Assembly: GCA_018350325.1 (NCBI GenBank)
Contig: JAEVLN010000044.1
Coordinates: 88,668 to 152,667 of the forward strand
Source: Globodera rostochiensis
Lineage: Eukaryota > Nematoda > Chromadorea > Rhabditida > Heteroderidae
DNA length: 64,000 nucleotides
Direction of reading: 5' to 3'
The notes under the pieces are model-generated. The model saw only the letters and a list, made by a program, of their open reading frames with translations. It was not told the DNA's origin and did not search any database. A program made the position numbers and the translations under genes. Below, one piece after another: positions 1 to 46,800 of this stretch. Every line of letters starts with the position of its first letter. Position 1 is the first letter of the stretch.

Positions 1-3000
1 CCCCCCCCCCCCCATCGGCCGCCCACGTCCACCTTGGCAATTTGTGCGTTTTGTCCGAGTCGCCTTTGCTCAGCCCCCCGCTGCTCTCTGAACATTGCCA
101 ATTCCGCGTCCACTCGCGTCAGTTCCTCCTCGAGTTGGGCCCTCTTCGCTTCCATTTCCTCAAAAGTTGCCTATCCCTCCCCACATTCATCGCGTCCCAA
201 TTGTTTACTCGGCTTTTCGTCCCCAATTCCTCCCTAAGTGTCTCCGAATTGGCCATTCTTCCAATGGAGTCAATTTCCGTTTGTTTGGATCGCTTTGAGG
301 CGAGTTCAGTGCGAAGCAAAGTCTCATTCTGGCCAAGGGTTATCAGCTCTTCCTGCAGTCGGACGTGCACTCAATAGAGCAAAGAATGGTTGCAGTCATT
401 CATTCAATTTGCTCTCATCTGCTCACATTCTTGCAGTTCTGCCGCGCTGACCCCGGCACTTCCCAGTGCCAAAACGGACTCGTCCAATCCGCTAACATTG
501 GTCATCACCATTTCCAAATGTCGGCAGTTTAGGGAAATCAGCTGCAATTGACGCACGATCTGTGCCGAAAGTGCTCTAATTTGCGACTCTCGCTGAGACT
601 TGGACAGTTCGAAGCTCTCCTGACAAAAAAATGGCCAAATGAGGACAGAACCAGCAGAGGGGACGGACTAGGAAAGAGTCCATTTGGAGTTCCCGATTCT
701 TCAGCTCCCTGAACTTCTCGCTCTTGTCCCCCGCCAGCAGTTCAAACTCGTTGTGGAACTCCTGAAGCTCCTCCTGCGACTGTGCCAAGCGTTCCTTCAT
801 CTCTTGCAGTCTCAAAACGGCCAAATCAATTGTGCCCTCCCCTCCCCCTGGACCACTGACTGCGTCTGCATGTGAGAAATTTCTTCGTTGTCGCGTTGGA
901 TGCGTTGTGCGAAGTGCTCCCGTTGCACCTCGGGGGTCTCCTCCGAGTTGAGCTCGGCCAGAATGGCCATTCTCCTCTCGCGCAGCTCCTGCAGCTGCTC
1001 CTCCAGCATCACTTAACTCTGGAGTCGTGTCCAACCCCACCCCCCCCCGTCACACTGGCTTGCTTCTTCAGCGGAGAGTTGACCAGTGCCAAGTCCATCT
1101 CCTCTTTTCGCCTGCACAGCTCCTCGAGCTCCGTCTGTCTCTTGGACAGGTCTCCGGCCAAAGTCTCGGCCTCTGCGCTGACCCTCTTGAACTCCTCCTT
1201 CACCTCCCGCTCCTCAAATGCGATGCCAACATTATGCCTCCGATTGCGTATCCATCAAGACCAACCATGTCACTCAGCTTCAACGTGTTCTCCGCTTTCA
1301 TCCGCTCAATGCGTTGTTCCAGCTCGTGCATCGCTTCTTCCCTTACCTTCCTCTCCCGGAATAAGCCTTCCACCGTGGCAACCATTTCTGAATGGCCCAT
1401 TTCATCATTTGGCCAAAGGGTCGAAATTTGCCCCGATTTATTCGATTCGCCTCCACAACTTCATTCTCCAGCATCCGCAGGTCGGAATTGGTGTTTTGGC
1501 GGCTAATTATCTGTCAGCAGAGCTTGTAATTGTTTACGCCAATATCGCTCCAAAAACAAAACCAAGTTGTAGTCCGCCAGTCCGCCCTGTAACTGCTTCA
1601 ATTCGTTGGCTTGTTCTTCTGCTCTACGACCATTAAATAAGTCACAAATGCAATTTTTGTTACATTTTACACCTTTGTTCATATGCAAGCAAATTCTCTC
1701 GTCCCTTCTCCGCCTTTTGCAACTCGAGCCCGAGGGAAACGATCTCAGTCTCCAACGCGTTCAGTTGGTTGTTCAACAGACCAATGAAGTAACTTTTGTC
1801 CGCAACCATTCTGCCCCTCATAGCCGCTAATATGTAACAAATCAATCACTTCCCCCCCCCAATGACTAACTTCCCAACCGGCTGCCCATTCTCGACCCCT
1901 CATAGCCGCTAATATGTAACAAATCAATCACTTCCCCCCCCCCCAATGACTAACTTCCCAACCGGCTGCCCATTCTCGACCCCTCATAGCCGCTAATATG
2001 TAACAAATCAATCACTTCCCCCCCCCAATGACTAACTTCCCAACCGGCTGCCCATTCTCGACCCTCATAGCCGCTAATATGTAACAAATCAATCACTTCC
2101 CCCCCCCCAATGACTAACTTCCCAACCGGCTGCCCATTCTCGACCCCTCATAGCCGCTAATATGTAACAAATCAATCACTTCCCCCCCCCCCCCCCCCAA
2201 TGACTAACTTCCCAACCGGCTGCCCATTCTCGACCCCTCATAGCCGCTAATATGTAACAAATCAATCACTTCCCCCCCCCCCCAATGACTAACTTCCCAA
2301 CCGGCTGCCCATTCTCGACCCTCATAGCCGCTAATATGTAACAAATCAATCACTTCCCCCCCCCAATGACTAACTTCCCAACCGGCTGCCCATTCTCGAC
2401 CCCTCATAGCCGCTAATATGTAACAAATCAATCACTTCCCCCCCCCCCCAATGACTAACTTCCCAACCGGCTGCCCATTCTCGACCCCTCATAGCCGCTA
2501 ATATGTAACAAATCAATCACTTCCCCCCCCCCCCCAATGACTAACTTCCCCAACCGGCTGCCCATTCTCGACCCCTCATAGCCGCTAATATGTAACAAAT
2601 CAATCACTTCCCCCCCCCCCAATGACTAACTTCCCAACCGGCTGCCCATTCTCGACCCCTCATAGCCGCTAATATGTAACAAATCAATCACTTCCCCCCC
2701 CCCCCCAATGACTAACTTCCCAACCGGCTGCCCATTCTCGACCCCTCATAGCCGCTAATATGTAACAAATCAATCACTTCCCCCCCCCCCCCAATGACTA
2801 ACTTCCCAACCGGCTGCCCATTCTCGACCCCTCATAGCCGCTAATATGTAACAAATCAATCACTTCCCCCCCCCCCAATGACTAACTTCCCAACCGGCTG
2901 CCCATTCTCGACCCCTCATAGCCGCTAATATGTAACAAATCAATCACTTCCCCCCCCCCCAATGACTAACTTCCCAACCGGCTGCCCATTCTCGACCCCT

Positions 3001-5671
3001 CATAGCCGCTAATATGTAACAAATCAATCACTTCTCCCCCCCCCCCCCAATGACTAACTTCCCAACCGGCTGCCCATTCTCGACCCCTCATAGCCGCTAA
3101 TATGTAACAAATCAATCACTTCTCCCCCCCCCCCCAATGACTAACTTCCCAACCGGCTGCCCATTCTCGACCCCTCATAGCCGCTAATATGTAACAAATC
3201 AATCACTTCTCCCCCCCCCCCCCCCCAATGACTAACTTCCCAACCGGCTGCCCATTCTCGACCCCTCATAGCCGCTAATATGTAACAAATCAATCACTTC
3301 CCCCCCCCCAATGACTAACTTCCCAACCGGCTGCCCATTCTCGACCCCTCATAGCCGCTAATATGTAACAAATCAATCACTTCCCCCCCCCCCAATGACT
3401 AACTTCCCAACCGGCTGCCCATTCTCGACCCCTCATAGCCGCTAATATGTAACAAATCAATCACTTCCCCCCCCCCCCCCAATGACTAACTTCCCAACCG
3501 GCTGCCCATTCTCGACCCCTCATAGCCGCTAATATGTAACAAATCAATCACTTCCCCCCCCCAATGACTAACTTCCCAACCGGCTGCCCATTCTCGACCC
3601 CTCATAGCCGCTAATATGTAACAAATCAATCACTTCCCCCCCCCCCCAATGACTAACTTCCCAACCGGCTGCCCATTCTCGACCCCTCATAGCCGCTAAT
3701 ATGTAACAAATCAATCACTTCCCCCCCCCAATGACTAACTTCCCAACCGGCTGCCCATTCTCGACCCCTCATAGCCGCTAATATGTAACAAATCAATCAC
3801 TTCCCCCCCCCAATGACTAACTTTCCAACCGGCTGCCCATTCTCGACCCCTCATAGCCGCTAATATGTAACAAATCAATCACTTCCCCCCCCAATGACTA
3901 ACTTTCCAACCGGCTGCCCATTCTCGACCCCTCATAGCCGCTAATATGTAACAAATCAATCACTTCCCCCCCCCCCCAATGACTAACTTCCCAACCGGCT
4001 GCCCATTCTCGACCCCTCATAGCCGCTAATATGTAACAAATCAATCACTTCCCCCCCCCCCAATGACTAACTTCCCAACCGGCTGCCCATTCTCGACCCC
4101 TCATAGCCGCTAATATGTAACAAATCAATCACTTCCCCCCCCCCAATGACTAACTTCCCAACCGGCTGCCCATTCTCGACCCCTCATAGCCGCTAATATG
4201 TAACAAATCAATCACTTCCCCCCCCCAATGACTAACTTCCCAACCGGCTGCCCATTCTCGACCCCTCATAGCCGCTAATATGTAACAAATCAATCACTTC
4301 CCCCCCCCCAATGACTAACTTCCCAACCGGCTGCCCATTCTCGACCCCTCATAGCCGCTAATATGTAACAAATCAATCACTTCCCCCCCCCCAATGACTA
4401 ACTTCCCAACCGGCTGCCCATTCTCGACCCCTCATAGCCGCTAATATGTAACAAATCAATCACTTCTCCCCCCCCCCAATGACTAACTTCCCAACCGGCT
4501 GCCCATTCTCGACCCCTCATAGCCGCTAATATGTAACAAATCAATCACTTCTCCCCCCCCCCCAATGACTAACTTCCCAACCGGCTGCCCATTCTCGACC
4601 CCTCATAGCCGCTAATATGTAACAAATCAATCACTTCTCCCCCCCCCCCCCCAATGACTAACTTCCCAACCGGCTGCCCATTCTCGACCCCTCATAGCCG
4701 CTAATATGTAACAAATCAATCACTTCTCCCCCCCCCCCCCCCAATGACTAACTTCCCAACCGGCTGCCCATTCTCGACCCCTCATAGCCGCTAATATGTA
4801 ACAAATCAATCACTTCTCCCCCCCCCAATGACTAACTTCCCAACCGGCTGCCCATTCTCGACCCCTCATAGCCGCTAATATGTAACAAATCAATCACTTC
4901 CCCCCCCCCAATGACTAACTTTCCAACCGGCTGCCCATTCTCGACCCCTCATAGCCGCTAATATGTAACAAATCAATCACTTCCCCCCCCCCAATGACTA
5001 ACTTTCCCAACCGGCTGCCCATTCTCGACCCCTCATAGCCGCTAATATGTAACAAATCAATCACTTCCCCCCCCCCCCCAATGACTAACTTCCCAACCGG
5101 CTGCCCATTCTCGACCCCTCATAGCCGCTAATATGTAACAAATCAATCACTTCTCCCCCCCCCCCCCAATGACTAACTTCCCAACCGGCTGCCCATTCTC
5201 GACCCCTCATAGCCGCTAATATGTAACAAATCAATCACTTCTCCCCCCCCCCCCAATGACTAACTTCCCAACCGGCTGCCCATTCTCGACCCCTCATAGC
5301 CGCTAATATGTAACAAATCAATCACTTCTCCCCCCCCCCCCCCCCCAATGACTAACTTCCCAACCGGCTGCCCATTCTCGAGCCTGGAACTACCGCCTTT
5401 GCCCCACTGATCCCTTGCTGAGTGATCGGTCGTTGCTGCATCGAAGGACCCCCAACAGAAGGCACGGGCACCGACCCTCCAGCAGGAAACATTGCGTTGT
5501 GCCGCGATGCGGCCGAATGGAGCCCACGGCGACTCGAAGAGCGAAGAGAATCCTTACAAATTGGAAATTAGGGGAGGATTTAGTCAAAAAATGCTTTTAC
5601 TGTTGCTGATTTGGGTAGCGGGGCGCCGTTTCCGTCGCTGGCGCCGACCGTTCCTTTGGGATAAATGACAT
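1..5671 (-). CDS. ift-74: Intraflagellar transport protein IFT74 (partial, 3' end beyond window)
   Basis: Coiled-coil subunit of the IFT-B complex that carries cargo along cilia with IFT81. The N-terminal exon (ending at 5357) has a basic, Ser/Gly/Pro-rich segment followed by QRPITQQGISGAK, matching the animal IFT74 motif RPVTQQGLTG. The next exon (from 1826 downwards) reads MVADKSYFIGLLNNQLNALE, then LQGGLADYN, both IFT74 landmarks. Further exons at about 1400-1200, 1200-1020, 1012-812 and 800-690 continue the coiled coil (DNEEISHM, KFRELKNRELQMDSF), and pieces at 620-430 and 370-14 carry it to the window edge. The exon 1 donor (GTTAGT) and exon 2 acceptor (ATATTAG) join in phase 1. A likely start is the ATG at 5671 (MSFIPKERSAPATET), joined over a 68-nt intron; this start is inferred. 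The intron between exons 1 and 2 is filled by the 82-bp array at 1827-5357. Confidence 0.88.
1827..5357 (-). repeat. 82-bp tandem array of intron-plus-exon-edge units in IFT74
   Basis: About 43 nearly identical units. In gene orientation each unit has an exon-like 38-nt part (37 nt in a few). Its first 13 nt are the start of exon 2 (CGGCTATGAGGGG) and its last 25 nt are the end of exon 1, finishing GCCGGTTGGGAA. A 44-nt intron-like part follows, starting GTTAGTCATT, running through a G-tract of about 7-17, and ending TTGTTACATATTAG. Units differ mainly in G-tract length, plus occasional T-for-C changes beside the tract. The final unit runs directly into true exon 2 at 1826, and the first is the true end of exon 1 at 5357. 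Confidence 0.95.
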
Positions 5672-7122
5672 TTTATCAGACATTATTTGACTTTTTAAGC
5701 TAATTTTTCTTAAAGTGCACTAAATTTTACCTGTCGCTGGCCTATGCCCTCCAGCGCCGATCATTTCGCCGCCGGCGAGTCCCATGCGACTCTTTGGGCG
5801 GTTGGCTGAGATTGGCGTTTGCTGCGGCAGTAGGGGACGCCCGGTGCTCGAGAGCGGTCGTTCAGAATCTGCAACATTTGTTCTGAAGTCGGCTCCGAAA
5901 GACTGGAAGGAAAATCCCCCGCGGGGATTCGCTCTTTTTGTTCATTGTTTTACTTCCCATAAGTCCGTCGTCCTCACATACTTCGTCCGGCCGTTTTTGG
6001 CCTTCGCACACTCGCAGTTCCGGGACGTTGTGGCTGTTGGCGAGTGGAGGGACGGGCGGAGGGGGGCCGCGTGTCCATAGGCCAATCGGTTGAGTGAAGG
6101 GAGCAATTACTGATTCCCGAAGATTCTAATTACCCTCGGGGGATTAAACGGGATGAATGAAATGGAAAAGAAAAGAGAGAGTGGAGGGGGGGGGGGGGTG
6201 CCGGGCCGACAATCAAAACCATTGGCATGGCAACAAAACATCAAATCAAAAATATAAATTTCAAGAAATCTTTTCGACTAAAAATTAAAATAAATTTATT
6301 GCAAACCAAAAGAATTATGTGCATACAGTCGAATAACAGGAATTAAACCTCAGAACTCATTGCTTTCATTAACCCCCCCCCCCGGGGAAATTTATATACC
6401 TAAATTTAAATAAGTTTTGGTGTTCGGAACCGTGCAATTGGAGGACGAAATATGTTTAATATATTTTTATTTGTATAAACAATTCGTTTTGAAGGCTCAG
6501 TTCGGGTACGGAGTTCGGAATTGGTCTAAAATTCGTATTGTACGGCCCCGAAAATCCTATAAAAGTCCCTTTTGTCAAATTTTAAAACTCAGTGACAAAA
6601 TGATTGGCCGGCCACAATTTTCTCATATTCATTTTGTCGAATCTTTTTGTCCATTCAATCAAATGCAATCTTTTCCCCAAAACTTCTAATTGCCCTTTAA
6701 TCCCCGTCAAAGTGTTAAGTGCCCTTCCTCAATTAATGATGTCGTCCGCGAGCTGATCGTCAACATTTATTTCATCGTTCAAAGATTCATAAATAGGAAA
6801 TTCTTAGCAATGATCGAAAGCAAATAAATTATACAAAATCCAATATTTATTTGAAATAAAGCAAAAAGATTAATTGGGATTGTGAAGAGCGAGAAAGGAG
6901 GGGGGGGGGGGGGGGGACCCGCAGGTTTTAATGACCGATCGGGAGTGATCGGAATGATGGAAAGCAAAAAAGGGATTCGGAGAAAGAACAAATGGGATCA
7001 GCGAAAAGTAATTTAATGCCCAAAGGTATGTAATAAAGAACGAACATCAATTAGCATTAATTACACTTACAAATACATAAACTGATTCTATTGCAGAAAG
7101 TGAAAGCTCATTGGGTGCTTTG
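5672..7122. other. Intergenic region upstream of IFT74, no supported gene
   Basis: No reading frame here could be tied to a family. A 98-codon forward frame at 5784-6080 has no recognisable motif. The stretch holds G-runs near 6185 and 6900 and a C-run near 6372, with AT-rich sequence between. It must contain the IFT74 promoter if the start at 5671 is right, but I see no defined promoter element. Confidence 0.4.
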
Positions 7123-15449: not shown

Positions 15450-18400
15450 CGGCCTGTGGGGTTGGGAGGCCTGGAGGCCTGTGGGGTTGGGAGGCCTGGA
15501 GGCCTGTGGGGTTGGGAGGCCTGGGGGCTTGAGAGGCCTGTGGGGTTGGGAGGCCTGTGGGTTGGGAGGCCTGGGGGCTTGAGAGGCCTGTGGGGTTGGG
15601 AGGCCTGTGGGGTTGGGAGGCCTGTGGGGTTGGGAGGCCTGTGGGGTTGGGAGGCCTGGGGGCTTGAGAGGCCTGTGGGGTTGGGAGGCCTGTGGGGTTG
15701 GGAGGCCTGGGGGCTTGGGAGGCCTGGGGGCTTGGGAGGCCTGTGGGGTTGGAAGGCCTGGGGAGGCCTGTGGGGTTGGGAGGGAGGCCTGGGGGCTTGG
15801 GAGGCCTGGGGGCTTGGGAGGCCTGTGGGGTTGGAAGGCCTGGGGAGGCCTTTGGGGTTGGGAGGGAGGCCTGGGGGCTTGGGAGGCCTGTGGGGTTGGG
15901 AGGCCTGTGGGGTTGGGAGGCCTGTGGGGTTGGGAGGCCTGTGGGGTTGGGAGGCCTGTGGGGTTGGGAGGCCTGTGGGGTTGGGAGGCCTGGGGGCTTG
16001 AGAGGCCTGTGGGGTTGGGTGGCCTGTGGGGTTGGGAGGCCTGTGGGGTTGGGAGGCCTGTGGGGTTGGGAGGCCTGTGGGGTTGGGAGGCCTGGGGGCT
16101 TGAGAGGCCTGTGGGGTTGGGAGGCCTGTGGGGTTGGGAGGCCTGTGGGGTTGGGAGGCCTGTGGGGTTGGGTGGCCTGTGTGGGTTGGGAGGCCTGTGG
16201 GGTTGGGAGGCCTGTGGGGTTGGGTGGCCTGTGGGGTTGGGAGGCCTGTGGGGTTGGGAGGCCTGTGGGGTTGGGAGGCCTGGGGGCTTGAGAGGCCTGT
16301 GGGGTTGGGAGGCCTGGGGGCTTGGGAGGCCTGGAGGCCTGTGGGGTTGGGTGGCCTGTGGGGTTGGGTGGCCTGTGGGGTTGGGAGGCCTGTGGGGTTG
16401 GGTGGCCTGTGGGGTTGGGAGGCCTGTGGGGTTGGGAGGCCTGTGGGGTTGGGAGGCCTGTGGGGTTGGGAGGCCTGTGGGGTTGGGAGGCCTGTGGGGT
16501 TGGGTGGCCTGTGGGGTTGGGAGGCCTGTGGGGTTGGGAGGCCTGTGGGGTTGGGTGGCCTGTGGGGTTGGGAGGCCTGTGGGTTGGGAGGCCTGTGGGG
16601 TTGGGTGGCCTGTGGGGTTGGGAGGCCTGTGGGGTTGGGTGGCCTGTGGGGTTGGGAGGCCTGTGGGGTTGGGAGGCCTGTGGGGTTGGGAGGCCTGTGG
16701 GGTTGGGAGGCCTGTGGGGTTGGGAGGCCTGTGGGGTTGGGAGGCCTGTGGGGTTGGGAGGCCTGTGGGGTTGGGTGGCCTGTGGGGTTGGGTGGCCTGT
16801 GGGGTTGGGAGGCCTGGGGGCTTGGGAGGCCTGTGAGGTTGGGAGGCCTGTGGGGTTGGGAGGCCTGGGGGCTTGAGAGGCCTGTGGGGTTGGGAGGCCT
16901 GGGGGCTTGGGAGGCCTGGAGGCCTGTGGTGTTGGGTGGCCTGTGGGGTTGGGAGGCCTGTGGGGTTGGGAGGCCTGTGGGGTTGGGTGGCCTGTGGGGT
17001 TGGGAGGCCTGTGGGGTTGGGAGGCCTGTGGGGTTGGGTGGCCTGTGGGGTTGGGAGGCCTGTGGGGTTGGGAGGCCTGTGGGGTTGGGTGGCCTGTGGG
17101 GTTGGGAGGCCTGTGGGGTTGGGTGGCCTGTGGGGTTGGGAGGCCTGTGGGGTTGGGTGACCTGTGGGGTTGGGAGGCCTGTGGGGTTGGGAGGCCTGTG
17201 GGGTTGGGTGACCTGTGGGGTTGGGAGGCCTGTGGGGTTGGGTGGCCTGTGGGGTTGGGGAGGCCTGTGGGTTGGGTGACCTGTGGGGTTGGGAGGCCTG
17301 TGGGGTTGGGAGGCCTGTGGGGTTGGGAGGCCTGGGGGCTTGAGAGGCCTGTGGGGTTGGGAGGCCTGTGGGGTTGGGAGGCCTGTGGGGTTGGGAGGCC
17401 TGTGGGGTTGGGAGGCCTGGGGGGTTGGGAGGCCTGTGGGGTTGGGAGGCCTGTGGGGTTGGGTGGCCTGTGGGGTTGGGAGGCCTGTGGGGTTGGGAGG
17501 CCTGTGGGGTTGGGTGGCCTGTGGGGTTGGGAGGCCTGTGGGGTTGGGTGGCCTGTGGGGTTGGGAGGCCTGTGGGGTTGGGAGGCCTGTGGGGTTGGGG
17601 AGGCCTGTGGGGTTGGGAGGCCTGTGGGGTTGGGTGGCCTGTGGGGTTGGGAGGCCTGTGGGGTTGGGGAGGCCTGTGGGGTTGGGTGGCCTGTGGGGTT
17701 GGGAGGCCTGTGGGGTGGGAGGCCTGTGGGGTTGGGTGGGCCTGTGTGGGGTTGGGAGGCCTGTGGGGTTGGGTGGCCTGTGGGGTTGGGAGGCCTGTGG
17801 GGTTGGGTGGCCTGTGGGGTTGGGAGGCCTGTGGGGTTGGGAGGCCTGTGGGGTTGGGAGGCCTGTGGGGTTGGGAGGCCTGGGGGCTTGAGAGGCCTGT
17901 GGGGTTGGGAGGCCTGGGGGCTTGGGAGGCCTGTGAGGTTGGGAGGCCTGTGGGGTTGGGAGGCCTGGGGGCTTGAGAGGCCTGTGGGGTTGGGAGGCCT
18001 GGGGGCTTGGGAGGCCTGGAGGCCTGTGGTGTTGGGTGGCCTGTGGGGTTGGGAGGCCTGTGGGGTTGGGAGGCCTGTGGGGTTGGGAGGCCTGGGGGCT
18101 TGAGAGGCCTGTGGGGTTGGGAGGCCTGGGGGCTTGGGAGGCCTGGAGGCCTGTGGGGTTGGGTGGCCTGTGGGGTTGGGAGGCCTGTGGGGTTGGGAGG
18201 CCTGGGGGTTTGGGAGGCCTGGGGGCTTGGGAGGCCTGTGGGGTTGGAAGGCCTGGGGAGGCCTGTGGGGTTGGGAGGGAGGCCTGGGGGCTTGGGAGGC
18301 CTGGGGGCTTGGGAGGCCTGTGGGGTTGGAAGGCCTGGGGAGGCCTGTGGGGTTGGGAGGGAGGCCTGGGGGCTTGGGAGGCCTGGGGGCTTGGGAGGCC

Positions 18401-18605
18401 TGTGGGGTTGGGAGGCCTGGGGAGGCCTGTGGGGTTGGGAGGCCTGTGGGGTTGGGAGGCCTGGGGGCTTGAGAGGCCTGTGGGGTTGGGAGGCCTGGGG
18501 GCTTGGGAGGCCTGGAGGCCTGTGGGGTTGGGTGGCCTGTGGGGTTGGGAGGCCTGTGGGGTTGGGAGGCCTGGGGGCTTGAGAGGCCTGGGGGCTTGGG
18601 AGGCC
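15450..18605. repeat. 17-bp GC-rich satellite, about 3.15 kb
   Basis: Roughly 185 copies of GGCCTGTGGGGTTGGGA and variants (GGCCTGGGGGCTTGAGA, GGCCTGTGGGGTTGGGT, and a shorter GGCCTGGA). Each unit carries an AGGCCT palindrome at the junction and clustered G-tracts on the + strand. The period is not a multiple of three and units contain no stop codon in any frame, so all six frames stay open. Higher-order patterns recur: for example the stretch around 16860-16930 is repeated around 17950-18020. It lies between the abl-1 start and the next possible gene, so it may be intergenic or in a 5' intron. Confidence 0.95.
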
Positions 18606-19738
18606 TTGAGCTTATGTAGGAGACGAGACATACATATGGGTTGGAGAATGAAAATTGGGGGGGGGATTAATTAATGGAGAAGGAGGGGGGGGGGGGACTG
18701 ATTTGCATTCGGATGAAGCATTGCGGATGAGGATGTAACGGATGAAGAGGACGAACAACGCGATAGGTCCTGGGGATCTCTGTATAGATGGGGGGGGGGG
18801 GGCTATGATTGTAAAAGGACAGCAAGCAGCAACAGCCAAAATTGGGGAGGGGGGACAAAAACGGAACAAAGGCAAAGGGAGTGTGGGGGGGGGGGGTGCC
18901 GCCGGAGGGGTGGATGATGATGTTAATGCTCGTCGAGTGGGGGGGGGGGGGCGGGCAATTATCGATCGGTGACACAATTCTGTTGCTTAAATTGGATCGG
19001 ATCGGACGTGTGGGCGGGTCGGGTGAAGAGGCGATTAGTGCGGATGTAATTTTCTGACCGGATAATTAATCCCTCGCCATTTCCCATTCATCGCTCGCTT
19101 TTAGCACTTCAATACACAAAATGTCGTTGCGGTGCGGCGGCGTCAGTCGGTCAAAGAGAGTTTATTAGAGAGTTTTTGTCGTCGAATTTTCGCGGAGACT
19201 CACTGTTCGTCCCATCCTCAGCGATTCCAACTCGTTCAGCAGCAATTTCCGAGAATAGAAACGCCGCAAATCGTCCCCCGACAATATCTTCAAATCCTGT
19301 CCTCCTCCCCTCCGACTTTATCTTCCGTTCTGATCGCATGGATTGGGTTACATTCAGCAACAGAGTGAGAGGGGGAGGTGGAGGGAAGCACACACACACT
19401 GCTGTAAATCGGGGGGGGGGGGTCTATCTGTGCTCTCAACCTAATCGGACACTATTTATACATATTTATGCATGCTTAGTCTGGATAAGTATCCGGGGCC
19501 TTTACCAACCTAATCGGACACTATTTATTCATATTTATGCATGCTTAGTCTGGATAAGTATCCGGGGCCTTTACCAACCTAACTATAGGCACCGCCGATT
19601 TGCAATCTGCGGAGAAAGGGGTTTCATTTTTACTTTTGGTACTGAAGATCCGTTTTACTTCCTTAATTTTCATGTTTTAAACCGGTTCAAAAACCGCTTT
19701 AAATTCTCAATTTTGGTTTTTTTGAAAGCCAGTATGAG
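18606..19738. other. Intergenic or intronic region with G-runs and a 69-bp direct duplication
   Basis: G-runs of 8-14 at about 18657, 18687, 18790, 18883, 18938 and 19411. A 69-bp segment beginning CAACCTAATCGGACACTA is present twice in tandem (about 19439-19507 and 19508-19576), differing at one base. Reverse frames around 19400-19150 are open but match nothing I recognise. Confidence 0.45.
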
Positions 19739-23267: not shown

Positions 23268-26200
23268 AATGGACGGAAAGTCGCCTTTCTATGGAGCCGA
23301 CGACTTTGTTTTACCTCCCCCCAATTCCTCTCCCCGCTGTGCTAATAATTGCCCATTTAATTTCGCCATTAATCGCTTCTGCCGCCGCCGTCCATGACGA
23401 GAGAATTTACACAATCGACCGCGAGGAATACGAAAGTTGGCTTTTATGATCGTAAAGCCATGCCCCCCCCCCCGGAGAGCCCATTCTGAAAAGAATGTGT
23501 TCAGAGTCCAAAGAATCCGAGAATCTGACTTCCGTTCCAAGCAATTTCGAACATTTGGTTGAAAAAAACAGATTTCCAAATTAAAATTTAAATAAAAGAA
23601 AAGCGCTGTAATGAGGTAGGCGTAAAAGGTGATTTAAACATTCCAATTTTCGATCGGAATCATTTTTGGAGGAAAGGAATAAAAAAACCCGTGGCAGCCG
23701 TTGCAGAGGAACAAACATCGCCTTCGGCAACAGAAAAACATTCTCAAAGGAACAAATTCGTTAGACAATAACCGGAATTTTGCTTTTCTGCCCAAATGTT
23801 CGAATGGATGTTCAAATTTTGGGGCAACTAATCCTTCAACGTGTTGATTATGCCACATTACCACACTCTGCTTCTCCCGACAGGATTTGCCGAACAGTTT
23901 CTTCTCCCCGAGGATTTCGATCTCGCCGAGAGCACTCCAAGTAAGGGATGGATCCAGTGAATCCGAGTTTTCCCATTTAACTTTTTTTAGTTCGAAAACC
24001 GACTCCACAAGATTTGGACTCAATTTTGAACCACGAATTATTCGAAGGTGATTGAGTTAGTTCCGCTGTTTAAGAAAGCTAATTGAAAGCCTTTAGGGGT
24101 GTTTAATCATTATGCTGAATTTTATGTAATTTAATTGAAGGTGACATCCTCGGAATGACCGCTCCGCCCACAGCGTCCACCACCCAAAAGTCACTATTCG
24201 GTTATGCGCACGATACACCACCCGCCGACGATGGACATCAGCCAAAAAAAGAGAATTTAGATCGGATCTTTTCGCAGCCAGTAAGAGAAATGGACACTGA
24301 AACCAGAAATGCCTTTTGACTAGGGTTGAGCGGGACCGGTACCGGGACGGGATTTCCCGGTTTTTTCAGGTCCCGGTCGGGACGGGCTTTTTGAAATCTA
24401 AAAGTCCCGGTCCCGGTTTTTTGGTTGAGAAAAATGAATAAATATGGCATTTCTGGACACACAGTTGCCGTCTATTCGTTGTTGAGCCTCGGCGGATGAC
24501 TAAACTAATTATCCCATTCGGGTCAGTATTACAGTTCACTGAACACCCAAACATATCCGAACAAACTGTGGCATGACGGCAACGTGCCATACATTCTGGA
24601 GGAGGGAATGAGTGCGCCGTAAGTGTGGGGTTGGCCTCTGGTGCGCAATTGGTCACATTTCAGGCAACGGGCAGCCATTGCCAGCGCTTTTGACGAGTAT
24701 AAAGGCAAGTCGCTCGTCGGGCAATCATTGGGGGAGGGAGGGGAGAGGGCCTCGGGCCAAGGGAATTTGAGAGCAATCATTGGGGGAGGGAGGGGAGAGG
24801 GCCTCGGGCCAAGGGAATTTGAGAGCAATCATTGGGGGAGGGAGGGGAGAGGGCCTCGGGCCAAGGGAATTTGAGAGCAATCATTGGGGGAGGGAGGGGA
24901 GAGGGCCTCGGGCCAAGGGAATTTGAGAGCAATCATTGGGGGAGGGAGGGGAGAGGGCCTCGGGCCAAGGGAATTTGAGAGCAATCATTGGGGGAGGGAG
25001 GGGAGAGGGCCTCGGGCCAAGGGAATTTAAGAGCAATCATTGGGGGAGGGAGAGGAGAGGGCCTCGGGCCAAGGGAATTTAAGAGCAATCATTGGGGGAG
25101 GGAGGGGAGAGGGCCTCGGGCCAAGGGAATTTGAGAGCAATCATTGGGGGAGGGAGGGGAGAGGGCCTCGGGCCAAGGGAATTTGAGAGCAATCATTGGG
25201 GGAGGGAGGGGAGAGGGCCTCGGGCCAAGGGAATTTAAGAGCAATCATTGGGGGAGGGAGGGGAGAGGGCCTCGGGCCAAGGGAATTTAAGAGCAATCAT
25301 TGGGGGAGGGAGAGGAGAGGGCCTCGGGCCAAGGGAATTTAAGAGCAATCATTGGGGGAGGGAGGGGAGAGGGCCTCGGGCCAAGGGAATTTAAGAGCAA
25401 TCATTGGGGGAGGGAGGGGAGAGGGCCTCGGGCCAAGGGAATTTGAGAGCAATCATTGGGGGAGGGAGGGGAGAGGGCCTCGGGGCCAAGGGAATTTGAG
25501 AGCAATCATTGGGGGAGGGAGGGGAGAGGGCCTCGGGCCAAGGGAATTTGAGAGCAATCATTGGGGGAGGGAGGGGAGAGGGCCTCGGGCCAAGGGAATT
25601 TGAGAGCAATCATTGGGGGAGGGAGGGGAGAGGGCCTCGGGCCAAGGGAATTTGAGAGCAATCATTGGGGGAGGGAGGGGAGAGGGCCTCGGGCCAAGGG
25701 AATTTAAGAGCAATCATTGGGGGAGGGAGGGGAGAGGGCCTCGGGCCAAGGGAATTTGAGAGCAATCATTGGGGGAGGGAGGGGAGAGGGCCTCGGGCCA
25801 AGGGAATTTGAGAGCAATCATTGGGGGAGGGAGGGGAGAGGGCCTCGGGCCAAGGGAATTTGAGAGCAATCATTGGGGGAGGGAGGGGAGAGGGCCTCGG
25901 GCCAAGGGAATTTGAGAGCAATCATTGGGGGAGGGAGGGGAGAGGGCCTCGGGCCAAGGGAATTTAAGAGCAATCATTGGGGGAGGGAGGGGAGAGGGCC
26001 TCAGGCCAAGGGAATTTGAGAGCAATCATTGGGGGAGGGAGGGGAGAGGGCCTCGGGCCAAGGGAATTTAAGAGCAATCATTGGGGGAGGGAGAGGAGAG
26101 GGCCTCGGGCCAAGGGAATTTGAGAGCAATCATTGGGGGAGGGAGGGGAGAGGGCCTCGGGCCAAGGGAATTTGAGAGCAATCATTGGGGGAGGGAGGGG

Positions 26201-28673
26201 AGAGGGCCTCGGGCCAAGGGAATTTAAGAGCAATCATTGGGGGAGGGAGGGGAGAGGGCCTCGGGCCAAGGGAATTTAAGAGCAATCATTGGGGGAGGGA
26301 GGGGAGAGGGCCTCGGGCCAAGGGAATTTAAGAGCAATCATTGGGGGAGGGAGGGGAGAGGGCCTCGGGCCAAGGGAATTTGAGAGCAATCATTGGGGGA
26401 GGGAGGGGAGAGGGCCTCGGGCCAAGGGAATTTGAGAGCAATCATTGGGGGAGGGAGGGGAGAGGGCCTCGGGCCAAGGGAATTTGAGAGCAATCATTGG
26501 GGGAGGGAGGGGAGAGGGCCTCGGGCCAAGGGAATTTGAGACTTATTGTTAAAGAAGCCAATGCCTTTAAGGCAAAACGTGCATTCGTTTCGTCCCACGA
26601 CAGAACACTGACGCCGACTACATTTATGTGAAGCGCAACTACGGGTTTGGGTGCGTTTCTGAGTTAATTTACATGGAAGGCACAAGAGACCGGACACAAA
26701 CCTTAGCCTAAACCGATACTTTCGGTAACCGGAATGCCAATGAAAACTTACCGTTCCCGCGGGATCCCGAATTCAATCTCGACGGAATTCCGAGAAATCT
26801 CGACGGCCGGTCTCTAGAAGGCACTCATTGTCAGATGCTCTTCGTACGTTGGAAGGGCTGGTGGGAATCAGACGGTCTCTTTGGAAGTGGACAAATGCTT
26901 CTCCAAGGGAATTATCGCTCATGAGCTGGTAAGTATAGAGTAGTAGGGACCGCGCCATGTGTTTCCGACAGTGAGTGATTTCGACAGTGAATTCCAAATA
27001 ATGTTTCGAACTTGTTAGACATTTCGAATTTTACTTTTAAATGCTTTTTAGACCTGTACGTTATCCGTTTTGCTAAAAAAACGCATTTTTAAGCTTGCCT
27101 CAAAATTACAGTTTTTGAATTGTTCGAATTTTTTCTTTTTTCAGGTATTTTATATCATTACGTGGGTCGAAATGCCTAAAAATAAGAATTTTATATTTCT
27201 TGGAAAATCACAGAATTTTCAACAATGGCACTGTCCGAAATCACTTATTGCCGAAATGATGCCGCAGGGACGTTGCCCCTATTCATTGTTCACTCCGTCC
27301 CCTCCCTGCCGCAGATGCATGCTTTGGGCTTCTTCCATGAGCATTCTCGCACAGATCGCGATGAATACGTGGACATTTTAGAGGACAATGTGCGTCCGGG
27401 GATGCTGAGAAATTTTGAGAAGTATCCAAAGAAAATAATCGACCCGCTTGGGATGCCGTACGACTACGGTTCCGTTATGCATTACCACAAATTGGCATTT
27501 TCTCGCAATGGAAGGTCGACTATTGTGCCGGTTTGCAGGGGATGAACTTTTCGCGCGTAACGCACTCTCTTTAGAAATCGAAGGCCACGGAGATTGGCCA
27601 AAGGTTTTGGGATGGGGGAGAGGTAAGACGAATTCACTGACTGAATGTTTGAAGGTACAAACTGAGCGAAATCGATGCAAAGAAAGTTAACAAATTGTAC
27701 CGATGCGACGGCGCCGGAATTGCGAAGGAAACAACCAACACGGAAACAACAACGGCACAAATTCCCAACACGGAAACAACAACAACACAAATTCCCAACA
27801 CGGAAACAACAACGGCACAAATTCCCAACACGGAAACAACAACGGCACAAATTCCCAACACGGAAACAACAACCGCACAAATTCCCAACACGGAAACAAC
27901 AGAGGCGAACACGACGACCGATGAGGACGAGGAGACGACGGCGGAAGGCAGCACAGAAACGGCCCCCGGGGAGGAAGAAACGGCCGCTTCTACGGGAGAA
28001 CCAGCAGCGACGGCTATGACAACAGACGGCGGAATGGAGGAGGAAACCACAACGGAGACGGGGGAGGAGGGCACCACAGCGGAGCCTAGGGGGACAACAC
28101 CTTTGACGGTTAAGAATAAAGTTTTGCCGAAAATGAGGAGGACCAAGGGAGAATGGACGGGGGACAGGGCGAAATGGCCGAATGTGGCTAAAAAGTTCAT
28201 CACTCTGTCAATTTGGTCCACACGAAGCGGCCGGAAGCACAACAAAGGCAATGCGAAGACGAAAAGCGAATGAGACACAGAAATTTTACAGGAAATGGCA
28301 CCCCCAAAGCACAAACGCTGGGAGGGGAGAAGCCGGGGGGGCTCATCAGAATACGCGGCGGGGGGAGGGAGAGAGAGCGTTGCGTCGACCTCAACGCGCA
28401 CTGTGAAATGTGGGAACGGTTGAGCCATTGTTTGCACTCGGCCAAATATATGCGCCATTATTGTCGCAAGTCGTGCGGTTTTTGTGACGAAACAGAGGAA
28501 AAGCAAAGTGTTACGGTCTAAAAAGCAAAAATAAAATCAATTATTTAGCAGACCGGTTCGAAGCGTGCACCGACAAGAACCATTTCTGCACTTATTGGGC
28601 TCAGAACGGCGAGTGCGACAAAGGGTCCAAGTTTATGAAACTCTTCTGCAAACGATCCTGCAGATTGTGTTGA
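23268..28673 (+). CDS. Astacin-family (M12A) zinc metalloprotease with two ShK domains
   Basis: Secreted nematode astacin (NAS type). A hydrophobic leader ([17 protein letters not shown], about 23330-23385) is followed by pro-region exons at about 23890-23941, 23990-24048 and 24141-24282. These include LFEGDIL, the FxGD aspartate switch that holds astacins inactive. The mature domain begins [16 protein letters not shown] (24530) and [20 protein letters not shown] (across a GC-AG intron). It continues [19 protein letters not shown], then the zinc site [19 protein letters not shown] split by an intron (26930/27315), and the Met-turn SVMHY. A linker of 30-bp in-frame repeats follows (27745-27900). 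ShK-like six-cysteine domains lie at 28380-28490 and 28565-28670, the second ending at the stop. The first-exon start is inferred from phase. Introns hold a 52-bp array and a small MITE. Confidence 0.9.
24321..24425. mobile_element. One-ended GC-rich element remnant in an astacin intron
   Basis: Starts TAGGGTTGAGCGGGACCGG, a hAT-like left terminus, followed by low-complexity GTCCCGG/CCGGGAC motifs. No matching right terminus or target duplication was found nearby, so it appears truncated. It resembles the interior style of the elements at 7131-8475. Confidence 0.45.
24721..26540 (+). repeat. 52-bp tandem array in a GC-AG intron of the astacin gene
   Basis: About 35 units. Each begins GCAATCATTGGGGGAGGG, continues through AGGGGAGAGGGCCTCGGGCC and ends AAGGGAATTTGAGA or AATTTAAGA. 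The G-rich strand is the coding strand. Units differ by G/A at two or three sites. The host intron has donor AAAG|GCAAGT (24705) and acceptor CCTTTAAG (about 26571), which join DEYKG to KTCIRF in phase 1. No GT dinucleotide is seen in the unit on the gene strand. Confidence 0.95.
26684..26816. mobile_element. 133-bp hAT-like MITE in an astacin intron
   Basis: Termini AAGAGACCGG and CCGGTCTCTA are inverted repeats except for the outermost base. They are flanked by the exact 8-bp duplication GAAGGCAC (26676-26683 and 26817-26824). Its ends match those of the element at 57508-58424. It sits in the short intron between the exons encoding YVKRNYGFG and [10 protein letters not shown]. Confidence 0.8.
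27745..27900 (+). repeat. In-frame 30-bp coding repeat in the astacin linker
   Basis: Five 30-bp units encode [10 protein letters not shown] (one with TQIP), followed by an acidic Thr/Glu/Ala-rich tail. Because the period is 30, the reading frame is preserved. The Thr-rich content suggests an O-glycosylated spacer between the catalytic and ShK domains; that role is inferred. Confidence 0.85.
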
Positions 28674-40800: not shown

Positions 40801-43800
40801 AAAGTCAGCCGTGCAAAATTTGGTGTCATGTTCGAGATTCCGAACTGATTCGAAATAAGGGACAATTCCCGAACGGTAATTAACAATTTGATTTATTGTT
40901 TTGCATTCTCCGCATATTCAGGTTCCCCCTGCGGCCCCAACCATTTTTGTGTCGGCGGTGTGTGTCTGATGGTAATTAAGTTAATGACAATATGCCGAGA
41001 ACACATTACGAGACTGACTGGGTCTAATAATCATTCAATTATGTACTTAATTACCATCTAATCATTCATTCTCTGTGCTCAGATGGGATGTGACGGGCGC
41101 GCTTTGGTTCAGAGTCCGTCCGATTGTCCTTCGGCAGATTCGACAGAACTGAACGTTAAGCCCCAATTAAAGCATTCATTCGTCATTTCCATATTCAGTT
41201 CATCATTTCGACTGGGAATCTCCGAAAACATTCGACGAAAGCCGAAAAATGGGACCAATGGGGGCAATGGTCCGTCTGCTCCGCCACTTGCGGTGACTTC
41301 GGCGTTCAGAAAAGGACGCGAAAATGCCGTTTCCCCGTGGAATCGGTAATTGGAAGAGGGCGAAGACACTTTAATAATGGCGGCACCTTCTGAAGGAATG
41401 TGCGGGAAAGGACAGCGAAGTGAGGGCGTGTGACCCAACGCCGTCCCGGTGTGAGGCAATGTTCTCGGAATGGACAGGTTTTGTCCAATTGGGGAGGGCC
41501 AAATGAATAAGACAAACGAAACTCTAAAGAATGGTCCGATTGTGATGGGCCGTGCGGACAGAAAGACGCGGGAAGGCGGAGACGACGGAGGAAATGCATG
41601 GCAAATGTCGCGGACTGCACGGAAGCGACGGTCGAAGAGGAGCCATGCCGAAGGGTTTGAATCGAAAAGCACACGAAAAAAAGGATTTGAAAACAATTAT
41701 TAATTTAAGGTAAACTGTTCGGAGTGGGGCCAATGGACTGCTTGGACAGAATGTGTGGGGAGATGCGGGGAGGAGGGCGAGAGGAGCAGGGAGCGCAAGT
41801 GTTCTGCGGAAGGTTGGTGGGTTGATGGAGTGTTGGGGGGGGGGGGCAGGAGTTCGGGGGGCATCGGAATCATTAATTAAGTGTTGGGGGGGGGGAGTTC
41901 GGGGGGCATCGGAATCATTAATTAAGTGTTGGGGGGGCAGGAGTTCGGGGGGCATCGGAATCATTAATTAAGTGTTGGGGGGGGGGGGGGGGGAGTTCGG
42001 GGGGCATCGGAATCATTAATTAAGTGTTGGGGGGGGCAGGAGTTCGGGGGGCATCGGAATCATTAATTAAGTGTTGGGGGGGGGGGAGTTCGGGGGGCAT
42101 CGGAATCATTAATTAAGTGTTGGGGGGGGGGGGGCAGGAGTTCGGGGGGCATCGGAATCATTAATTAAGTGTTGGGGGGGGGAGTTCGGGGGGCATCGGA
42201 ATCATTAATTAAGTGTTGGGGGGGGGAGTTCGGGGGGCACCGGAATCATTAATTAATTCAGGTGGGGAGGGAGACGCCGAGTTGGGATGTGAGGGGCATT
42301 CTGTCCAGAGAGAGCGATGCAATGAGACTAAGTGTGAGATGGCGCTGAATGACGAAAGAGGGTGGGGAGAGGTGATCGGAGGGGGGGGGGGGGGGGGGGG
42401 GCGTCTTTCGATTACGGGAAAAAGGACTTTTGTAGTGGCAGCCTTGTTCGGTGAGCTGCGGGATCGGATTTCAATTCAGGGAAAGGCTATGCGGGGACAG
42501 ACAATGTGCCGGCAGTGGGAAGCAGGCGAGGACGTGCAATGTTCAAGTGCTATTGGGGGGGGGGGAAGGCAATTCGCTAATTGTTTCGTTTAAGGACTGT
42601 TCCCGAGTGCTCGACATGCCGGTTTGGAGTGAGTGGTCGTTGTGGAGTGTTTGTTCCCGAACTTGCGGCCAGGGGGTTCAGCAACGTTTCCGACGGTGCA
42701 TGAACGGACTTTGCTCCGCTGGAGAATCGTTAAAGGAGCAGAAACGATGCGTACTTGGCCCGTGTCCACAGGCAATTCACTCAGAGTTAATAAACGACCA
42801 GCCAATTCTTTCAGTGGTCAATTTGGTCTCAATGGACAAAATGTGCGTCTTGCAGTGTATTTGAAACACGCAAAAGGCAAAGACAATGTGTCGTAAAAGT
42901 GGCAATAGCGGAAGGACAACAGGAAGAGACTGAGTTGGGCCAGGAAGCTTGCAGCTCGGGTAGGAAGGATAATGATCGAGGAGGGTGGGGGCGGGAGGTG
43001 ATCAGAAAGAGTACGTCATCAACTTCTCCGATTAGCAGGTGCCCCCATTGAGTTCGACACTTGCGAACGGTCGTGTGCGGAAGAGGAAAGTGCCAAAGTG
43101 CACGGGGTAAAGATAGTTCAAGCGACCGGTAACGTCAGTGAGTCATTGACCGGGAGTTGGACACAATGGGGCGACTGGTCACAGTGTTCCGCGACTTGCG
43201 GGAATGGAACGCGTCGAAGGGAGCGTACCTGCGAAGGCGGAGGGAGAGGCGGATGCGGTTGGCAGGACGCGGAGACGGAGCAGTGCCGCGAGCAACGATG
43301 TGAGGGACACGCGAACGCGCACAATGTTTCCGGAAATGCTTTGGCAGAAGGTCAGTCGCACTTTTAAGGGGGACGAACGGATTGGCATCCAAACATTCAG
43401 CAACAAAAAGCGTCGTCCGTTACCCGACTTGGTCAGAATGGTCCGAATGGTCCGCCTGTTCTTGCTTCTCACTCAAACGCTACAGACGGCGTTTCTGCCG
43501 CGTTCATGACCCCCAGTTGAAGGTGGGCTGGGATTATTCTAGAAAGTTTTAAAATATTCTTTGCAGGGATTCTGTGCCGGATCAATCATTGATCAGAGCC
43601 CATGCATCCCTCCCGATTTGTCCACATCCCTTGAGGGGAAACAATGTGTTGCCATTGCAGGCAGTTGGTCGGACAAGCACCGAAAGGAGATTAACCACAC
43701 TGAGTTTATTTTGACAGGTCCGCTTGGTCGGAGTGGTCGGACTGCTCCCAAGACTGCGGCACGCGGGGACATCGCATTCGGAACCGAATGTGCGCCAATC

Positions 43801-46800
43801 CGCTCCCGTCCAATAGGTAAATGAATGGCAATAATCGCGCAGCTTTTTCTTTCACCGATCAGCCAATTTTCCGATTTTAGGGGCTCCTATTGTGTCGGTT
43901 TCTCATTCGACCAGGTCCCCTGTGACCAAGCCGCCATTATTTGTCGTGGTGATCCAATCGATGGCCGTTGGAGTGAATGGTCCGATTGGTCTCAATGTTC
44001 GAATCCATGTGCCAACGGACAAAGGTCGCGGTCGAGATACTGCTCTAACCCCCGCCCTCAAAATGGCGGCAAACAATGTTCCGGAACAGATTTTGAGTTG
44101 CAGGTCCTGTGACCGCCCCCCCCCCTCAAATTGCAACATTCGTTTAGGCTTGTTCCGAGCCGGCTTTGTGCCAAATCTGTGAGTTAAAGCGCCAACAAAA
44201 GCCCCCCCCCCTTCGCTCACTTCACCCCTTTCATTTCAAAGTTCACTCACCGCTAAGTCTCTCGCCAAATGTTTCATCCACCAACACATCTTTGCCTTCA
44301 CCACCTCAGCCCCTATGGGGCCCCTGGTCCCCGTGGTCCAATTGCACTTCCAATTGTGCTTTTGCCCTCCGGCGACGATTCCGCTTGTGCGAGTTGTCCA
44401 AAGAGGCGCAACTTTCGACAAAAAGCTGCGAAGGAATTGCTCAAATGACAGCAATGTGCGATACGCCCTTTTCCTGTCCAAATGGTCTCTTCTAACATTC
44501 ACAAATCACAAAAATAACCAACCGATCACTAACAAATAAACTAACAAAACGCACAGATACGGCGGTGACAGACGGACGATGGACGGAATGGAGCGAATGG
44601 TCGGCGGCTAACTGCGAATGGGGGACGTGCAACGGCGGGAGGGATTCGGCAGAGGACGAGGAAATGGGGGAGGAGGAGACGGAAGAGGACGGGGGAGGCT
44701 CCGGAGAGGAGGAAACTCCGACGGAAGAGGACCGGGAGCAGCACTTTGGGGGTTATTCTATGGCATTGGCACACGCACTTAACACTCGAACAAGGTCCGA
44801 AAATTATCGATTTTAACCCAACCACCACACATTCACAAATCAAATCACATCCTTAGTTTTTGGCACCCTCGTCAATCTGTGCCCTCCCTTCCCCTATTTC
44901 CCAATGCCCCCCCCCATTTCCTCACATCCTTAGTTTTTGGCACCCTCGTCAATCTGTGCCCTCCCTTCCCCTATTTCCCAATGCCCCCCCCCATTTCCTC
45001 ACATCCTTAGTTTTTGGCACCCTCGTCAATCTGTGCCCTCCCCTTCCCCTATTTCCCAATGCCCCCCCCATTTCCTCACATCCTTAGTTTTTGGCACCCT
45101 CGTCAATCTGTGCCCTCCCCTTCCCCTATTTCCCAATGCCCCCCCCATTTCCTCACATCCTTAGTTTTTGGCACCCTCGTCAATCTGTGCCCTCCCCTTC
45201 CCCTATTTCCCAATGCCCCCCCATTTCCTCACATCCTTAGTTTTTGGCACCCTCGTCAATCTGTGCCCTCCCCTTCCCCTATTTCCCAATGCCCCCCCCA
45301 TTTCCTCACATCCTTAGTTTTTGGCACCCTCGTCAATCTGTGCCCTCCCCTTCCCCTATTTCCCAATGCCCCCCCCCATTTCCTCACATCCTTAGTTTTT
45401 GGCACCCTCGTCAATCTGTGCCCTCCCCTTCCCCTATTTCCCAATGCCCCCCCCATTTCCTCACATCCTTAGTTTTTGGCACCCTCGTCAATCTGTGCCC
45501 TCCCCTTCCCCTATTTCCCAATGCCCCCCCCCATTTCCTCACATCCTTAGTTTTTGGCACCCTCGTCAATCTGTGCCCTCCCCTTCCCCTATTTCCCAAT
45601 GCCCCCCCCCATTTCCTCACATCCTTAGTTTTTGGCACCCTCGTCAATCTGTGCCCTCCCCTTCCCCTATTTCCCAATGCCCCCCCCATTTCCTCACATC
45701 CTTAGTTTTTGGCACCCTCGTCAATCTGTGCCCTCCCCTTCCCCTATTTCCCAATGCCCCCCCCATTTCCTCACATCCTTAGTTTTTGGCACCCTCGTCA
45801 ATCTGTGCCCTCCCCTTCCCCTATTTCCCAATGCCCCCCCCATTTCCTCACATCCTTAGTTTTTGGCACCCTCGTCAATCTGTGCCCTCCCCTTCCCCTA
45901 TTTCCCAATGCCCCCCCCATTTCCTCACATCCTTAGTTTTTGGCACCCTCGTCAATCTGTGCCCTCCCCTTCCCCTATTTCCCAATGCCCCCCCCCATTT
46001 CCTCACATCCTTAGTTTTTGGCACCCTCGTCAATCTGTGCCCTCCCCTTCCCCTATTTCCCAATGCCCCCCCCCATTTCCTCACATCCTTAGTTTTTGGC
46101 ACCCTCGTCAATCTGTGCCCTCCCCTTCCCCTATTTCCCAATGCCCCCCCCCATTTCCTCACATCCTTAGTTTTTGGCACCCTCGTCAATCTGTGCCCTC
46201 CCCTTCCCCTATTTCCCAATGCCCCCCCCCATTTCCTCACATCTGTGCCCTCCCTTCCCCTATTGCCCAATGCCCCCCCCATTTCCTCCACATCCTTAGT
46301 TTTTGGCACCCTCGTCAATCTGTGCCCTCCCCTTCCCCTATTTTCCCAATGCCCCCCCCATTTCCTCACATCCTTACTTTTTGGCACCCTCGTCAATCTG
46401 TGCCCTCCCTTCCCCTATTTCCCCAATGCCCCCCCCATTTCCTCACATCCTTAGTTTTTGGCACCCTCGTCAATCTGTGCCCTCCCCTTCCCCTATTTCC
46501 CAATGCCCCCCCCATTTCCTCACATCCTTAGTTTTTGGCACCCCTCGTCAATCTGTGCCCTCCCCTTCCCCTATTTCCCAATGCCCCCCCCCATTTCCTC
46601 ACATCCTTACTTTTTGGCACCCTCGTCAATCTGTGCCCTCCCCTTCCCCTATTTCCCAATGCCCCCCCCATTTCCTCACATCCTTAGTTTTGGCACCCTC
46701 GTCAATCTGTGCCCTCCCCTTCCCCTATTTCCCAATGCCCCCCCCCATTTCCTCACATCCTTACTTTTTGGCACCCTCGTCAATCTGTGCCCAATGCCCC

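Follow-up and report, generated by a model that had tools for sequence, protein, structure and literature searches.

How does a conserved gene yield its protein when one of its introns has become a long array of intron copies, each bounded by the same splice sites? This question is raised by a window of 64,000 nucleotides from the nematode Globodera rostochiensis (positions 88,668 to 152,667 of the forward strand of contig JAEVLN010000044.1, assembly GCA_018350325.1), to which the coordinates below refer unless a segment is named, and in which a minisatellite occupies the junction between coding exons 4 and 5 of IFT74, a ciliary gene read from the minus strand. Making the IFT74 protein from this locus would require ignoring dozens of identical false splice signals. 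The array sets up a natural competition on one pre-mRNA, with 42 copies each of an identical donor and an identical acceptor, in which one of the 903 possible pairings (42 x 43 / 2) directly makes the conserved protein junction. The account that we consider probable is that a young G-run minisatellite has grown within a gene that is still expressed, that the mRNA skipping the whole array is the functional one, and that the products of decoy sites are degraded.

A minisatellite of complete splice junctions

Tandem Repeats Finder (TRF) delimits a minisatellite at 1806-5381, exonic ends included, with a period of 84, 42.1 copies and 96% matches. Parsed in gene orientation by its donors and acceptors, the minus strand from 5356 to 1827 consists of 42 consecutive complete short introns alternating with 41 mini-exons of 37-39 nt, and the order along the array is strictly donor, acceptor, donor, acceptor. 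The donor GTTAGT (in fuller form GTTAGTCATT), which follows the tail of exon 4, and the acceptor TACATATTAG are both present in 42 of 42 mini-introns. These range from 43 to 54 nt in length, and the copies differ solely in how long their G-run is (8-17) and in whether an AG stands before AAG (11/42 have it). The first mini-intron (5303-5356, 54 nt, G-run of 17) has the true donor of exon 4, and the last (1827-1870, 44 nt, G-run of 9) has the true acceptor of exon 5.

Each mini-exon fuses the start of exon 5 (CGGCTATGAGGGG, 13 nt) to the end of exon 4 (TCGAGAATGGGCAGCCGGTTGGGAA, 25 nt), for a total of 38 nt. Among the 41 mini-exons, 34 are identical 38-mers, three carry one substitution, two are 39 nt long and two are 37 nt long, the exon-5 part of the latter being 12 nt. 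The resulting array units measure 81-92 bp (43-54 + 38), and the interval from the first donor to the last acceptor, between exons 4 and 5, spans 3530 nt. In this one assembly the locus has the attributes of a minisatellite or variable number tandem repeat (VNTR), a unit tens of bases long being repeated in tandem many times and with high identity. A 151-base array probe searched against the genome itself returned at least 41 matches, a lower bound because the search skips very common words, and 41 of 41 fell within the IFT74 array. A chance repeat or a simple intronic satellite is ruled out: exon-derived sequence is part of the unit, each of the 42 introns has its donor and its acceptor, and chance is rejected as a cause because there are 42 near-identical copies.

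An earlier note on this DNA had described the unit as the tandem amplification of an exon-intron-exon junction and the two true exons as intact and in phase, with boundary bases 5357 and 1826, and the parse bears out each of these points. It had, however, counted about 43 copies of a fixed 82-bp unit with a 44-nt intron, where we count 42 intron copies of which seven are 44 nt long, and it had taken the flanking exons for exons 1 and 2, which are coding exons 4 (5552-5357) and 5 (1826-1673).

Identity and structure of the array-bearing gene

The similarity of its conceptual product identifies the array-bearing gene as IFT74, as the earlier note had proposed. A phmmer search with the joined protein recovered IFT74 chains of PDB 8bd7 (E 9.7e-24) and 6ian (E 1.4e-16). 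With the 616-aa conceptual protein as query, 17 homologs were found at E <= 0.001 among 7995 candidates scored, nematode relatives among them and several named intraflagellar transport 74; the best, from Heterodera schachtii, showed 67% identity in the search and 69% over the alignment. No Pfam family was found for the first 300 aa of the IFT74 protein, and the first 233 aa as query gave no homolog at E <= 0.001 among 968 candidates, all of 0.55-1.75 times the query length, a range outside which full-length homologs lie.

In the gene model, all on the minus strand, coding exon 1 occupies 5982-6078, with its ATG placed at 6078 on the strength of the open frame and of first-residue similarity to nematode relatives, and is followed by coding exons 2 (5731-5868) and 3 (5601-5653). 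Exon 4 (5357-5552, 196 nt), the last 25 nt of which recur in the mini-exons, encodes RPITQQGISG, conserved in relatives, and exon 5 (1673-1826, 154 nt), the first 13 nt of which recur, encodes VADKSYFIGLL, a stretch conserved in IFT74. The exons from coding exon 6 on lie in order as open frames at 1-1623, their ends after exon 6 set by hand. The remaining introns in the model measure 113, 77, 48 and 49 nt. The exons read stay open until window base 1, immediately below which comes an assembly gap of 2847 N (L009:7154-10000). The poly-G run that this gap adjoins belongs to the downstream part of IFT74. By hand reading, the intron at 1431-1388 needs a GC donor to keep the frame (a GC-AG intron), which agrees with the GC-AG introns known in Globodera from the accessible part of one report (PMC4901422). 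A second IFT74 copy, searched for in the genome with a 139-aa query, was not found, all four matches lying at the array-bearing gene; dispensability of the gene through a second copy is rejected on this search, in which the query matched a single locus.

The last base of exon 4 is the first of a codon that exon 5 completes in phase, and pairing of the outermost sites yields GSRMGSRLG joined to TAMRGRMVADKSYFI (with longer downstream sequence, TAMRGRMVADKSYFIGLL). The protein produced by skipping the whole array is colinear and gap-free at the junction with H. schachtii IFT74 (GSRMASRMGTVMRGRTVADKSYFI), and residues flanking the junction on both sides are present in 9 of 11 aligned relatives, with small gaps in a variable linker. 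One side of the exon 4-5 junction is missing in the other two, P0003 and P0009, and P0009, a predicted M. enterolobii protein, is without exactly the stretch encoded by exon 5. This gap probably reflects the same exon boundaries in that species, in which case the boundaries would be old and the intron not new.

Frame consequences and the choice of splice sites

Inclusion of a single 38-nt mini-exon causes the following exon, mini or true, to open with CGG CTA TGA, a stop, and retention of the first mini-intron brings in a TAG within its donor. Only 44 of the 2^41 inclusion patterns are productive, via the 39-nt copies or via the succession of a 37-nt and a 38-nt copy. In coding VNTRs of the LPA kringle type the unit exon is a multiple of three and is included in the mRNA; the IFT74 array is not an in-frame coding VNTR of this kind, as 37 of its 41 mini-exons are 38 nt long, which is not a multiple of three. 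Under a model in which each mini-exon is included independently, the productive share of the mRNA would be 0.68 at 1% inclusion per mini-exon and 0.51 at 1.7%.

We propose that the useful mRNA joins donor 1 (5356) to acceptor 42 (1827), with all 41 mini-exons skipped. Transcripts using inner sites would acquire early stops, and nonsense-mediated decay, which destroys transcripts with early stops, would degrade them. If the gene works, the frames nearly force the functional mRNA to be the one that skips the array. IFT74 is probably still expressed, and the chances that the skip-all form is also the major splice product appear near even.

Several observations weigh against this proposal. The joining of 5357 to 1826 is deduced from protein conservation. 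The decoys also reproduce the surroundings of the true sites: for the donor, its intron and no fewer than the 25 exonic nt that precede it, and for the acceptor, the intron ahead of it and the 13 nt that follow. Exon length (196 and 154 nt versus 38) is the most evident difference between true and decoy sites. Moreover, the closest sites across short introns pair preferentially, according to the portion available to us of a study using an alternative splice-site database and minigenes (PMC9225289). Proximity pairing here would remove each mini-intron and include the mini-exons, that is, it would damage the gene.

RNA structure was considered as a discriminator between true and decoy sites and is rejected, the true donor lying, in the folds of single mini-introns, in the same kind of hairpin as the others. 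A search for RNA families at gathering threshold found none in the window. RNA from the animal could separate the effects of proximity, first-come order and exon context with no engineered construct.

Alternative explanations

The strongest alternative, which we nevertheless regard as unlikely, is that the gene is broken: nearest sites would pair, mini-exons would be spliced in and nearly all mRNA would be destroyed, making the assembled allele a strong hypomorph or a null. The proximity rule, as set out in the same part of PMC9225289, favours such pairing, and the mini-introns are near in length to the other short introns of IFT74, which makes them plausible units of intron definition. Modest inclusion would suffice, the model predicting a productive share of 0.14 at 5% inclusion per mini-exon and of 2% at 10%. 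Yet the other exons read open, with the identity to H. schachtii noted above; no second IFT74 copy was found with the 139-aa query; and the accumulation of 42 copies with variants distributed in blocks suggests that carriers have persisted.

It is very improbable that the assembly has inflated a shorter array, or a single intron, into the present one. Poly-G tandem arrays are hard to assemble, the gap mentioned above, 1.8 kb away from the array, abuts a poly-G run, and the two 37-nt and two 39-nt mini-exons are possible read errors. Against such inflation, the two ends of the array differ in their variants, the AG being absent from copies 29-42 and the 37-nt mini-exons occurring at 36 and 39 only, and other arrays in the window are of comparable length.

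Least credible of all is a selected regulatory device, in which decoy splicing would tune the IFT74 level or reinitiation at an ATG of exon 5 would give an N-terminally shortened IFT74, since the fact that 37 of 41 mini-exons would act as 38-nt poison exons if included singly, the two in-frame ATGs near the start of exon 5 and the better folding of a 250-nt array RNA than of its dinucleotide shuffles (z -4.05) are set against exon and intron parts that are alike near-identical, which argues for homogenisation rather than selection on sites, against two single mini-introns (the last of them cut one base too far upstream) whose folding does not surpass that of simple shuffles (z -0.26 and -0.87), and against arrays of the same kind in the unrelated genes for mitochondrial IF-2 (mtIF2) and astacin, described below.

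Origin of the array

Under the favoured account, in which the array is a passenger with a copy-number-dependent splicing load and not an evolved device, the first step would have been the tandem duplication of a short IFT74 intron whose donor is closely followed by a poly-G run, along with adjoining exonic sequence, 25 nt from exon 4 and 13 nt from exon 5. The duplicated junction would then have grown to 42 copies by G-rich minisatellite instability, through replication slippage or unequal exchange. At the joint of the unit, exon 5 has the sequence GGGG-CAGAATGG and exon 4 the sequence GGC-TCGAGAATGG, and the AGAATGG near the joint that is common to both is a possible seed of the first duplication.

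The variants are distributed in blocks. The AG is present in copies 1-3, 7-11 and 26-28 and in none of copies 29-42; a GGAAA variant occurs in copies 5, 17 and 18, the 39-nt mini-exons are found at 4 and 33, and the 37-nt ones at 36 and 39. A lag test on G-run length gave one of 29 lags at p 0.041 and no firm higher-order period. The near-identity of the copies and the block-wise variants fit recent or ongoing amplification with homogenisation. More generally, G-runs near donors may predispose short introns to amplification, with a unit that takes in adjoining sequence and sometimes catches the donor or, as would be the case in IFT74, both splice sites. The poly-G run as the cause of amplification is our inference. 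The locus illustrates how a G-rich minisatellite can take over a splice junction within a conserved gene.

Comparison with known systems

The statement in the earlier note that no example had been described is too strong, as two human systems come close in the portions of the reports accessible to us (PMC5954066, PMC2812944). The VNTR in intron 18 of human ABCA7 has a 25-bp unit starting with the exon 18 donor and a copy number between about 12 and about 427. Canonical splicing takes the first donor, and use of the next one leads to retention of one unit, a frameshift and a premature stop. Measured unit retention is reported as 2 +/- 1% in tissues, longer arrays are associated with lower expression, and the length-dependent effect is skipping of the next exon (PMC5954066). 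Like the ABCA7 VNTR, the IFT74 minisatellite sits at an exon-intron boundary and has a donor in 42 of 42 units. It is not of the donor-only type, since 42 acceptors TACATATTAG are also present: unlike the ABCA7 unit, which carries a donor only as described there, the IFT74 unit comprises donor, intron and acceptor together with a frame-breaking mini-exon. Splicing was measured in ABCA7, whereas the IFT74 array is known here from DNA. In human genes of segmental duplications, internal tandem repeats at boundaries, on average 30-bp units in four copies, are described as giving novel introns and created splice sites (PMC2812944, in part). The IFT74 minisatellite resembles these repeats, which alter splicing, in its position at an exon-intron boundary, and differs from them in that an existing intron has been amplified 42-fold in a gene found once.

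Within the accessible text of these two reports, no unit with both donor and acceptor is described, and a search of open-access full texts, seen in part, found no array of complete donor-plus-acceptor units. Relative to ABCA7, the amplification of complete donor and acceptor pairs is new. Tandem genomic duplication has also been reported as a route of intron gain (PMC4974935, available portion). There, as in IFT74, tandem duplication of a gene segment changes intron structure, but the IFT74 intron is probably old and has been multiplied.

Two nematode systems offer further parallels in the parts of the reports at hand. In the HYP effectors of plant-parasitic nematodes, tandem-repeat motifs form a variable domain (PMC11228951). 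As in IFT74, repeat arrays lie there at a single-gene locus, in a probably related nematode and with changes in copy number, but the IFT74 repeats must be spliced out, and the gene is a ciliary one. In Caenorhabditis, 121 of 396 poly-G/poly-C tracts of C. elegans are intronic, their maintenance requires DOG-1, and intragenic G tracts favour the non-coding strand (84 vs 47; PMC2211496). The IFT74 intron likewise has a poly-G tract; in contrast to the single tracts described there, its tract-bearing junction has been amplified and the G tract is on the coding strand.

Further G-run and junction arrays in the genome

The IFT74 array is not alone in the genome, given that two more junction-duplicating arrays, in the mtIF2 and astacin genes, were found in sampled DNA. 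The sample comprised 26 segments and 306,153 bases, made up of the window, two neighbours and 23 blind-placed segments, and contained 38 arrays with a period of at least 20 and at least three copies. A G/C run of at least 6 was present in 7 of the 38 arrays, versus 4.6% of random pieces. Two figures count against a general association: four of the seven G-run arrays lie in the window, which was chosen for an array, and the proportion outside it is 3/28; and a G-quadruplex motif occurs in 3 of 38 arrays versus 2.0% expected, all three in the window. The enrichment of G-runs among arrays, and hence their link to amplification, is thus suggestive but weak. Under looser limits the sample held 13 G-run arrays, three of which duplicate a splice junction (IFT74, mtIF2 and astacin), a lower bound in that arrays without a G-run were not searched systematically.

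The mtIF2 array (minus strand, L025:8284-8815; with flank G000:C15, 8212-8815 = 108212-108815) repeats an exon tail and donor, CTCCAA/GTGATC (the slash marks the splice site), followed by a G-run, in 19 strict donor copies (about 20) at a spacing of 22-52. A downstream acceptor joins in frame to give KCDVEGTLQ followed by AVQTVLDLYDANDRV, with a gap-free alignment to mitochondrial IF-2, and the identity of the gene is supported by Pfam IF-2 (E 9.7e-25) and PDB 3izy (E 5.8e-15). In-frame products arise from donors 1-3 of the 19. This array is nearer to the donor-only ABCA7 type, with one in-frame acceptor found and no search made for others. The astacin array (minus strand, L019:2807-3094; with flank G000:C9, 2770-3094 = 102770-103094) contains six copies of the last 27 nt of an exon with the donor AAG/GTGCCT and a G-run, in a gene identified by Pfam Astacin (E 3.4e-29). 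Donors 1, 2 and 5 of the six are in frame with the acceptor used. A TTACAG lies within each unit, and mini-introns are conceivable in this array as well, judging from its sequence.

By eye, two other G-rich arrays of the window appear to leave splice sites untouched. That at 41840-42256, one of the 13, is intronic, in a gene that has thrombospondin-type motifs, and touches no splice site, and that at 24721-26541, whose G runs of at most 5 place it outside the 13, is apparently wholly intronic in an astacin-like gene. Counting these two and the three junction arrays, the G-rich strand is the sense strand in 5 of 5 genic arrays.

Two junction arrays in about 225 kb of N-free sequence, the total of the 23 blind-placed segments, correspond to roughly 9 per Mb, with very wide uncertainty, and their presence in so small a sample suggests that such arrays may commonly burden gene models in this genome. 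It is possible, though on balance doubtful, that poly-G introns in this nematode lineage recurrently amplify their own junctions and that the spliceosome pairs the outermost sites past nearer identical ones; if so, site choice there would rest on exon context or recognition of the whole array and not on proximity.

Three other repeats were noted. At 44845-47973 of the window, downstream of the thrombospondin-like gene, a G-rich unit of 77 bp is repeated about 40 times; the unit has CACAG and GTGAGG, a potential acceptor and donor of a 49-nt intron, and its flanks are apparently non-coding. At 15451-18606, a 17-bp unit repeated about 189 times leaves all three minus-strand frames open for more than 1,000 codons, with a Pro-rich repeat. 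Finally, three tandem 93-bp copies with a tRNA-like sequence, as judged by eye, are present at L037:9083-9361 (G000:C5:1509083-1509361).

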